The notes beneath the pieces were generated by a model. The model saw only the letters and a program-made list of their open reading frames with translations. It searched no databases and was not told the origin of the DNA. Source: Saccoglossus kowalevskii (Eukaryota; Hemichordata; Enteropneusta; Harrimaniidae). Taken from it: a stretch of 23,669 bases of DNA. The stretch covers positions 317,251 to 340,919 of the forward strand of contig NW_003124897.1 in NCBI RefSeq assembly GCF_000003605.2, given 5' to 3'. Shown in pieces: positions 2,387-23,669 of the stretch (position 1 is the first letter of the stretch; every line of letters begins with the position of its first letter). The position numbers and the translations under genes are program-made.

Positions 2387-2533
2387 AAATTCCAATCTCA
2401 GATATTTAAAAGATTGTACCTGATTGGCTACCTAACTCTAACACGTAACAGTTAGACCAATCGGAGAGCAGCTTGTTTGTCAACTGAAATTTCTGATATT
2501 TATCACTGTAAAAGCGTAAAGTAACCCCCTTAC
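2387..2533 (-). other. Intron immediately downstream of exon 6b, with an inverted repeat
   Basis: This is 147 bp between the element and the 6b donor. It contains an inverted repeat at 2422-2462: GATTGG with CCAATC as outer arms and TAACT with AGTTA as inner arms, around a 12-base loop. In the transcript it would sit about 70-110 nt after the 6b donor. A splicing role is only a guess. Confidence 0.5.
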
Positions 2534-2606
2534 CTTCAAGTCTCGATGAATGACACAGCTTTTATGGATGTATTCTACTGCCTCAAGTATCTGCTGAATG
2601 CAGTGA
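2534..2606 (-). CDS. CaMKII: CaMKII exon 6b, divergent alternative of the catalytic-loop exon
   Basis: This second 73-bp copy of the helix E/catalytic-loop exon reads HCIQQIL, then [17 protein letters not shown]. It has the same length and phases as exon 6a, an acceptor gtagcag beside 2607 and a strong gtaagg donor beside 2533. By hand count it differs from 6a at 19 of 73 bases and 7 of 24 residues (S/A, D/E, H/Y, C/I, N/S, G/C, V/I). Eight of the 17 unchanged residues use a different third base. This pattern suggests selection on the protein rather than a decaying copy. The acceptors share a TGCTTGT...CAGTCACTG context, so flanking intron was duplicated too. Including both exons would shift the frame, so I infer mutually exclusive use. 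Transcription of this copy is not shown by DNA alone. Confidence 0.92.
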
Positions 2607-2661
2607 CTGCTACAAGCAAGAGAAAACTGATGCTAAAAAATAACATCTAAAAAACACCCAC
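2607..2661 (-). other. 55-bp spacer intron between alternative exons 6a and 6b
   Basis: This short spacer runs from the gtgggt donor of exon 6a to the gtagcag acceptor of exon 6b. On the minus strand it is T-rich, with a pyrimidine stretch just before the 6b acceptor. It holds no stop-free coding sequence of note. A 55-nt spacer leaves little room for U1 and U2 snRNPs to assemble together. This is a known steric mechanism for mutually exclusive exons, although some invertebrate introns are this short. Confidence 0.8.
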
Positions 2662-2734
2662 CTTTAAATCACGATGAACAACCCCGTTTTTATGGCAATG
2701 GTCCACGGATTCAAGGATCTGCTGAATACAGTGA
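2662..2734 (-). CDS. CaMKII: CaMKII exon 6a, canonical-type helix E and HRDLK catalytic loop
   Basis: This 73-bp exon carries T (completing Ser) and 24 codons. It reads HCIQQIL, then [17 protein letters not shown]. It supplies helix E and the start of the catalytic loop; HRD contains the catalytic base Asp (about Asp135 in vertebrate CaMKII alpha). The [12 protein letters not shown] form is like the usual invertebrate CaMKII, so I take this as the ancestral version. The acceptor is gtcttgcag beside 2735 and the donor is gtgggt beside 2661. It enters in phase 2 and leaves in phase 0. It lies only 55 bp upstream, in transcript sense, of a second version of the same exon. The 83-codon minus-strand ORF overlapping it is in another frame and is not the gene. 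Confidence 0.96.
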
Positions 2735-3794: not shown

Positions 3795-3860
3795 CTAGCG
3801 TCTGCTTCACTATAGTACTCCCTGGCTACTATGTCTTCAAATAGCTCACCTCCGGTTACC
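3795..3860 (-). CDS. CaMKII: CaMKII exon (vertebrate exon 5 equivalent), helix D region
   Basis: This 66-bp exon reads [16 protein letters not shown] followed by SEADA and the first two bases of a Ser codon. This is the CaMKII signature just after the hinge, covering helix D and its approach; Glu of GGELF contacts the ATP ribose in kinases of this group (family knowledge). The first base, G, completes Leu of FDL from the previous exon. The last bases, AG, are completed by T at the start of either alternative next exon. The acceptor is ttttgcag next to 3861 and the donor is gttagt next to 3794. A run of about 18 T on the minus strand (3871-3888) forms the polypyrimidine tract. The intron to the nearer alternative exon is 1,060 bp. 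Confidence 0.97.
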
Positions 3861-4898: not shown

Positions 4899-4953
4899 AG
4901 ATCAAAGACTAAGTAGTGGAATCCTTCCTCAGCAATACTATCATGTAGTCGAA
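4899..4953 (-). CDS. CaMKII: CaMKII exon (vertebrate exon 4 equivalent), end of N-lobe and hinge
   Basis: This 55-bp internal exon reads (V)[18 protein letters not shown] on the minus strand. That is the beta4-beta5 segment and hinge of the CaMKII catalytic domain, around residues 73-91 of the family; Phe-Asp-Leu is the hinge that lines the ATP pocket. The acceptor ends in cttcag just right of 4953 and the donor is gtaag just left of 4899. It enters in phase 1, completing a Val codon, and leaves in phase 2, with CT completed to CTG by the next exon. The acceptor is preceded by a (GTTT)n microsatellite at 4964-4993. The match to CaMKII is nearly complete, and I see no in-frame stop or damage. 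Confidence 0.96.
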
Positions 4954-7582: not shown

Positions 7583-8319
7583 TAGCCAGGTGGGGGCAGG
7601 CTGCTGCATAGCCAGGTGGGTGGCAGGTGGGGGCAGGCTGCCACATAGCCAGGTGGGCAGCAGGTGGCAGCCCAGCCAGGATAGCTGGGTGGGTAACACT
7701 AGACAGCCGGGTGGGTGGGTTGCACTAGACAACCAGGAAGGTGGCACGAGACAGCCAGGTGGGTGGCACTAGATAGCCAGGTGGGTGGCACTAGACAGCC
7801 AGGTGGGTGGCACGAGACAGCCAGGTGGGTGGCACGAGACAGCCAGGTGGGTGGCACGAGACAGCCAGGTGGGTGGCACTAGACAGCCAGGTGGGTGGCA
7901 CTAGACAGCCAGGTGGGTGGCACGAGATAGCCAGGTGGGTGGCACGAGATAGCCAGGTGGGTGGCACGAGATAGCCAGGTGGGTGGCACGAGACAGCCAG
8001 GTGGGTGGCACGAGATAGCCAGGTGGGTGGCACTAGATAGCCAGGTGGGTGGCACGAGATAGCCAGGTGGGTGGCACTAGATAGCCAGGTGGGTGGCACT
8101 AGATAGCCAGGTGGGTGGCACTAGATAGCCAGGTGGGTAGCACTAGATAGCCAGGTGGGTGGCACTAGATAGTCAGGTGGGTGGCACTAGATAGCCAGGT
8201 GGGTGGCACTAGATAGCCAGGTGGGTGGCACTAGATAGGCAGGTGGGTGGCACTAGATAGCCAGGTGGGTGGCACTAGATAGACAGGTGGGTGGCACTAG
8301 ATAGACAGGTGGGTGGCAC
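7583..8319. repeat. 22-bp GC-rich minisatellite
   Basis: About 26 regular copies of TAGCCAGGTGGGTGGCACTA plus GA occupy 7751-8319, preceded by diverged copies from 7583. Variants CACGAGAC, CACGAGAT and CACTAGAT are interspersed, with CACTAGAT dominating on the right. Purines are concentrated on the plus strand. Because 22 is not a multiple of 3, the array reads open for up to 102 codons on the minus strand with a 22-residue period; that frame is a by-product and not a protein. Confidence 0.97.
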
Positions 8320-21845: not shown

Positions 21846-22137
21846 TAAACAAGCAGCCTGTCGGCTGAGATAGCTCCACTGTTAGCAATGCACATTTCAA
21901 TTAAAGAACAGAAGATATCATTAGAAAATGAACAATTTGTATAGTATCAAAGCAATTGGACTTGCTGTTTTCAACTATTCAAAAATATCACTTTTCACCA
22001 AAAATATTCACTAAAATTAGATAATTGAAGATATTATCATGAAATGAACAAATCTGAGAGAGGTCTACCCAAGTATCAAAATATTCAGGCTTGTAGTTTT
22101 CAAGAAGAAGTCGAAAAACTTAGACGACAGACGCCAA
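21846..22137 (+). mobile_element. Family A element, truncated copy 2
   Basis: Starts TAAACAAGCAGCCTGTCGGC and follows 1228-1420 closely through GTTAGCAATGCACATTTCAA. It has roughly one core repeat with an internal deletion, and reaches GACGACAGACGCC. It then stops, without the terminal hairpin and right inverted repeat. Same orientation as copy 1. The left end is nearly identical to copy 1, so the family was active fairly recently. Confidence 0.85.
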
Positions 22138-22460
22138 ATAAATTGCAGTGACAATGAACAACACCATGTTCAACTTATCACATAATGTGCCAACATACTA
22201 ATTCCCGATTGTGGCGAAACACATCATGATCTTTCTTTGATTTTTCCATACACAAAATAAACCAGATTACTTATTTGATATTAATTATTTTCATATATTT
22301 AAAAAAAAAAAAAATTGTAATCCAGACATGTAGCCAAAATTATATTATTTTGTCCAAATGAAAAAAACAAACAAACAAAACAGGAAAAACTAGTATTTAA
22401 AGAGTGTAATGATGATTCCCTTGCTGTCAGGATCAATGAAAGCAATAGGATGGACCTATA
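22138..22460. other. AT-rich spacer, nothing recognised
   Basis: Contains A-rich runs near 22301-22314 and a short (CAAA)n near 22368-22380. No gene is seen. Confidence 0.5.
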
Positions 22461-23149: not shown

Positions 23150-23669
23150 CTGTGCTACAGACACCATATAGACACATGTGTAATTTGTACACCACCAGGC
23201 CCCTGTGTAATACAGACACCATATATGGACATGTTAAGGAAACCTGTGTAATATGGACACCATAAGGAAACCTGTGTAATATGGACACCATAAGAACACC
23301 TGTGTAATATGGACACCATAAGAACACCTGTGTAATATGGACACCATAAGAACACCTGTGTAATATGGACAGCAAAAGGACACCTGTGTAATATGGACAA
23401 CATAAGGATACCTGTGTAATATGGACACCATGAGGACACCTGTGTAATATGGACACCATAAGGACACCCGTGTAATATGGACACCATAAGAACACCTGTG
23501 TATTTAAATATGGACAGCAAAAGGATACCTGTTTTGTATGAACACATTAGGTAAATCTGTGTAATATAGACACCATAGGGACACCTGTGTAATATGGACA
23601 CCTGTGTAATATGGACACCATTAGGACACCTGTTTAGTACAAACGCATTAAGGAAACCTGTGCTCATGT
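23150..23669. repeat. 28-bp minisatellite, truncated by right window edge
   Basis: About 18 copies of TGTGTAATATGGACACCATA plus AGGACACC. Central copies are exactly 28 bp apart (for example at 23245 and 23273); outer copies are diverged. It reads open in several minus-strand frames for up to 170 codons (HITQVS, YYTGVL and VSILHRC phrases), because the unit lacks minus-strand stops and 28 is not a multiple of 3. These frames are by-products. Confidence 0.95.

Follow-up and report, generated by a model that had tools for sequence, protein, structure and literature searches.

Candidate mutually exclusive exons for the catalytic loop of CaMKII in the acorn worm Saccoglossus kowalevskii

The CaMKII gene of the acorn worm Saccoglossus kowalevskii, a hemichordate and deuterostome, contains two adjacent versions of the exon that encodes helix E and the catalytic loop. 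As judged from genomic sequence, these versions, here called exons 6a and 6b, are probably a tandem duplicate whose members are spliced in a mutually exclusive manner. Both lie on one N-free stretch of the analyzed window, by which we mean the whole stretch of 23,669 nucleotides. A chance origin of a second 24-residue CaMKII helix-E and catalytic-loop exon with the same phase is not credible. Positions below are those of the window, and all exons are on the minus strand.

Two upstream exons lead into the pair. Exon 4 (4899..4953) starts with (V), is flanked by splice sites, and matches the S. kowalevskii gene model P0031 at 19 of 19 residues; exon 5 (3795..3860) ends in GCT AG/GTTAGT, where the slash marks the exon boundary, with (S) as the last residue. 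Exon 6a (2662..2734), the version present in the NCBI models P0030 and P0031, and exon 6b (2534..2606) both have 73 nt and 24 residues, and they are separated by a spacer of 55 nt, GTGGGT...TAGCAG (2607..2661). The acceptors read TCTTGCAG/TCACTG for 6a and CTTGTAGCAG/TCACTG for 6b. The latter is of the NAGNAG type (TAG CAG, 2607..2612), a feature absent from the preliminary description of this DNA, and use of its upstream AG would add one in-frame Ser. The donors are AAG/GTGGGT for 6a and AAG/GTAAGG for 6b (GTAAGG at 2528..2533), the second being, by eye, nearer to the consensus. Length and phase are equal and the splice sites of both copies are of the consensus kind, in agreement with the initial account of two 73-bp exons, 55 bp apart, with the same phases and intact splice sites. 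Exons 4 and 5 read in frame into 6a or 6b alike. Either copy can link exon 5 to the exon that follows, because each restores the codon AG/T and ends on a full AAG.

The two copies are identical at 17 of 24 residues and at 54 of 73 nucleotides. Eight of the 17 shared residues are encoded by different codons, so that direct comparison bears out the numbers given in the preliminary description. The differing residues occupy positions 9, 11, 12, 13, 16, 17, and 19 of 24 and are, in this order and with the 6a residue first, S-A, D-E, H-Y, C-I, N-S, G-C, and V-I. The HRDLK motif and H14 are the same in both copies.

The host gene occupies the stretch between about 377 and 276 kb of contig C1732, which is 775 kb long and belongs to the 572-Mb assembly. 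Kinase, linker, and C-terminal hub exons all lie on this contig, which identifies the gene as CaMKII. Exon 6a agrees with P0031 at 25 of 25 residues, the leading Ser counted, as does the linker exon SGQVANKAKVANITNVTNRVQQDPL (25/25); the values for the second linker exon and the hub end are 29/30 and 40/41, respectively. Over the exon proper, the exons of the contig equal the model, and the mismatches are at exon edges. S. kowalevskii also ranked first among the matches listed when the exons of the window were used to search a protein collection, and the agreement with its models led us to reject an origin in a mollusc, annelid, or brachiopod, the groups to which the preliminary description pointed for comparison. 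In the 123 kb searched by tblastn, of which 35 kb are N, no match is listed for P0031 residues 146-301, 316-332, and 387-495; residues 139-301 gave none beyond the exon edge. The same 123 kb, with its 35 kb of N, yielded neither a third copy of exon 6 nor the following PENLLL exon, which is outside the window; a run of 7,906 N (C1732:309345-317250) lies directly beyond the low end of the window.

The window is a scaffold stretch bounded by N runs, as might suit an assembly artefact in which the second copy came from a misplaced haplotype or from another gene. Such an origin is extremely improbable. Nineteen of 73 nucleotides distinguish the copies, which share one N-free stretch, and in a six-frame protein search of the genome (82 of 135 candidates scored) exons 6a and 6b of this contig are the only CaMKII-type exon-6 matches listed. 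A second CaMKII locus or haplotype copy was also considered and rejected, none being listed among the scored candidates of the protein search (82 of 135).

Several repeats accompany the gene. Minisatellites are found at positions 1-747 (32-bp unit, 23.6 copies, 89% matches), at 7680-8319 within a CaMKII intron (22-bp unit, 28.9 copies, 93% matches), and at the high end, where positions 23223-23602 (28-bp unit, 13.4 copies) adjoin a 13.7-kb N run. The segment 1343-2234, just downstream of exon 6b, is a tandem repeat with a 157-bp unit present in 5.0 copies at 1445-2234. By eye, the text at about 21870-22150 resembles this segment and has a near-identical ending; the two stretches may be copies of one interspersed element. 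No RNA families or tRNAs were detected in the window (the tRNA tool was used on bacterial settings).

Exon 6b looks to be under constraint at the protein level. Between 6a and 6b, pS is 0.78 (dS is saturated) and pN is 0.145, and 12 of the 19 substitutions fall at third codon positions. We simulated neutral evolution with the 6a protein held constant and 6b drifting, using 24 codons and no outgroup, and counted outcomes with no stop, at most seven amino-acid differences, and at least eight synonymous codons. The probability of this observed pattern did not exceed 0.008 at any of eight branch lengths. The result hinges on the eight synonymous codons, because with the synonymous condition removed the probability is 0.71 on the shortest branch (0.1 per site).

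A similar indication comes from the kinase domain. With both sequences cut at HRDLK, the Pfam Pkinase score is 116.4 bits with 6b and 115.7 bits with 6a. The seven residues by which 6b departs from 6a are each seen singly, at their own positions, in at least two of 39 distinct exon peptides, drawn from 307 single-exon CaMKII proteins (A9 in 6, E11 in 8, Y12 in 6, I13 in 5, S16 in 4, C17 in 2, and I19 in 2). Exon 6b is thus not a decayed catalytic loop, since the kinase score is kept and its residues occur in other CaMKIIs.

These data bear on the alternative that exon 6b is a dead duplicate, that is, a relic that is seldom or never spliced and has not yet been destroyed. The gene models are consistent with it: P0030 and P0031, each a cluster of one sequence, carry 6a exactly, and the 328 distinct proteins among the matches listed in three protein searches all lack the diagnostic 6b stretch YIHKSC. 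This absence says little, because each search covered the best 120 of 8,000 scored candidates and the entries are 90%-identity clusters. The other hemichordates among the matches listed, Ptychodera and Glandiceps, likewise have the 6a-like exon only, although further versions could be concealed in the larger clusters P0126 (15 members) and P0052 (4). The saturation of synonymous sites, set against few amino-acid changes, and the low probability in the neutral simulation speak against a relic, as does the retention of the open frame, the exact 73-nt length, a good donor, and HRDLK. On these features the dead-duplicate reading is disfavoured, and we regard it as unlikely.

Under mutually exclusive splicing, exon 5 would be joined to the PENLLL exon through 6a or through 6b, with the frame kept in both cases. 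The frame is lost if both copies are included or both are skipped, because 73 is not divisible by three. The preliminary description had noted that using both copies would do so, and indeed in-silico joining of 6a to 6b yields SLHSADT* after HRDLK, a stop after seven codons. The spacer appears to fall below the general length limit for splicing as an intron, and at 55 nt the 6a donor and the 6b branch point would be too close for the two copies to be spliced together. Because the spacer is too short for a donor and a well-spaced branch point, 6a and 6b would compete for splicing to exon 5 and to the exon that follows. A transcript with both copies or with neither would be out of frame and would probably be degraded, so that errors would be removed. 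In alpha-Tropomyosin, exclusive exons are enforced by the closeness of donor and branch point, and the mechanism was tested there; that gene encodes a structural protein, and for the worm CaMKII we infer the same mechanism of exclusion. The earlier statement that one or the other copy must be chosen is strengthened by the frame break and by the sequence constraint, in the softer form that exclusive use is probable.

The stop in the joined form could also have a regulatory role. In this scenario 6b would be a poison exon: joining of 6a and 6b would give a frameshifted, degraded message, and the exon would serve mainly to tune the amount of CaMKII and not to provide a second enzyme. A possible parallel is a cassette exon of unc-43 in Caenorhabditis elegans, which has a length not divisible by three, changes during development, and is listed with a premature stop in a text that does not specify which exon it is (PMC2265522). 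Amino-acid-level constraint on 6b is needless for such a role, and the 55-nt spacer would disfavour joining both copies; a poison exon is therefore a highly improbable explanation.

The mutually exclusive use of 6a and 6b would result in two active kinases that are seven residues apart in helix E and in the segment leading into HRDLK. Position 12 of the exon is presumably equivalent to Tyr156 of protein kinase A, a residue that we take to contact and brace the alphaC-beta4 loop. The change of His to Tyr at this position, together with that of Cys to Ile beside it, would alter the coupling between the lobes. Most likely, the swap tunes activation dynamics or autoinhibition and does not switch catalysis off, and we expect two active forms, not a pair of an active and a dead enzyme. 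The preliminary description spoke of enzymes with different catalytic cores. Seven residues do differ, but the expression is too strong: HRDLK and H14 are the same, the kinase scores are alike up to HRDLK, and each of the 6b residues occurs singly in other CaMKIIs.

Tandem copies of exon 6 are not restricted to the acorn worm. They are present in 20 of the 328 distinct proteins among the matches listed. These 20 belong to 11 fish, one skink (Lerista), one annelid (Owenia, P0012), and one nematode (Steinernema, P0128), 14 species in all. In this count 21 rows were flagged and P0234 was dropped, as its repeat covers only nine residues. We accordingly reject the possibility that the swap is unique to the acorn-worm lineage, pairs being found in fish, skink, annelid, and nematode models. 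The annelid pair is of the kind that the preliminary description proposed to look for, whereas its impression that vertebrates lack such a swap is contradicted by the fish and skink models with tandem copies and by a human CAMK2D swap described in the text of PMC9741552.

The paired models look like gene-prediction fusions. Two of them read through from one copy to the other, which, provided that all of the intervening DNA is kept, puts the copies 50 nt apart in Dunckerocampus and 140 nt apart in Silurus; if genuine, these lengths indicate close spacing like the 55 nt observed here. All six listed Dunckerocampus isoforms, X1-X6 (P0003-P0008), fuse both copies via the apparent 50-nt retained spacer, which is likely an annotation error. 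The Salvelinus delta-chain models P0196 and P0199 have the downstream version alone. In the Steinernema carpocapsae CaMKII model P0128, one copy of the pair reads NCIQQVLEGVHFCHRSNVLHRDLK.

As far as can be seen from protein models, the vertebrate pairs are at the same place of the protein, from helix E to HRDLK. The order of the copies differs between lineages. In the vertebrate models the downstream copy is of the HCHQMGVV type, and the upstream copy is NHIHQHDIV-like or NHCHLNGIV-like; in the acorn worm, by contrast, the standard type is upstream and an unusual EYIHKSCVI type is downstream. Solved structures, which we take to be human, also differ at this exon, with NHIHQHDIV in gamma (2v7o), LHCHQMGVV in beta (3bhh), and NHCHLNGIV in delta (9blh, 2vn9, and the sequence common to 5vlo and 6ayw).

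We compared the pairs of the worm, of three vertebrate types, of Owenia, and of Steinernema. Within pairs, most differences concern positions 9, 11-13, and 15-19, and a few lie at 1, 4, 6, and 10; H14 and HRDLK are invariant. The shared residue pattern was considered as a sign of common selection and dropped, since these positions also vary among the 39 distinct peptides of the 307 single-exon proteins; the pattern of the pairs reflects general tolerance. In every compared pair, position 9 is Ser in one partner and Ala or Gly in the other. The Ser-9 copy is upstream in the worm and vertebrates and downstream in Owenia and Steinernema, and therefore separate origins in protostomes and deuterostomes are mildly favoured. 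Over the 24 residues, comparison of the worm pair with the delta-type pair gives identities of 21+17 when matched, 20+15 when crossed, and 17+19 within lineages, so that the matched order leads by a very small margin; for the gamma-type pair the respective values are 17+17, 20+15, and 17+17, with no preference.

One tentative scenario, to which we give rather little credence, is that the catalytic-loop pair dates back to early deuterostomes, or perhaps to early bilaterians. The ancestral CaMKII would already have chosen between two exons, hemichordates would have kept the choice, and the vertebrate paralogues would have partly divided it. After genome duplications, beta would have fixed LHCHQMGVV, and gamma and delta NHIHQHDIV and NHCHLNGIV. 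A hardly less striking alternative is that the exon was tandemly duplicated repeatedly in different phyla.

Substitution of tandem-duplicated exons has been described for CaMKII itself. In the text of PMC9741552 (2022), human CAMK2D has such an event within the kinase domain, with residues beside the ATP site, drawn on 6ayw. From that description, and because fish pairs have a delta-type upstream copy (P0002, P0014, and P0015), this event appears to be the catalytic-loop exon. CAMK2D is a CaMKII gene like that of the acorn worm, and the likeness does not imply common ancestry with the worm pair. According to the same text, over 90% of these events in human have bony-fish orthologues, 21 have an orthologous invertebrate event, and convergence is widespread among human, fly, and nematode genes; in the sections covered here, CaMKII is not named among the convergent cases. 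CAMK2D is also listed, in the text of PMC5740500, among the human genes in which exclusive exons form four clusters. The Mapk14, Mapk9, and Mapk10 genes have mutually exclusive exons in the catalytic domain, as reported in the text of PMC1431701; there, as in the worm CaMKII, an exon of the kinase core is swapped, but the kinase family differs. By term search, CAMK2 is absent from the main text of Abascal 2015 (PMC4465641). A CaMKII swap of this kind was not found in the main texts of PMC9013439, PMC2265522, PMC12925949, PMC1431701, and PMC4465641, mostly by term search.

In summary, a one-or-other swap in the acorn-worm CaMKII, of a kind already known in CaMKII, is the best reading of the sequence features and a probable one. 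What is new is a hemichordate exon missing from the gene models, together with tandem pairs at one exon in the gene models of several phyla.

The diversity of CaMKII is mostly ascribed to splicing of the linker. If the choice of the catalytic-loop exon is used, one gene would give two kinases with different core dynamics. In the acorn worm, with one CaMKII locus found (82 of 135 candidates scored), this choice could be tested without vertebrate paralogues. Closely spaced exclusive exons can be missed or fused by gene models. The recurrence of such pairs, seen in vertebrate, annelid, and nematode gene models and now in a hemichordate, suggests that this part of the kinase core is tunable, with activity retained.
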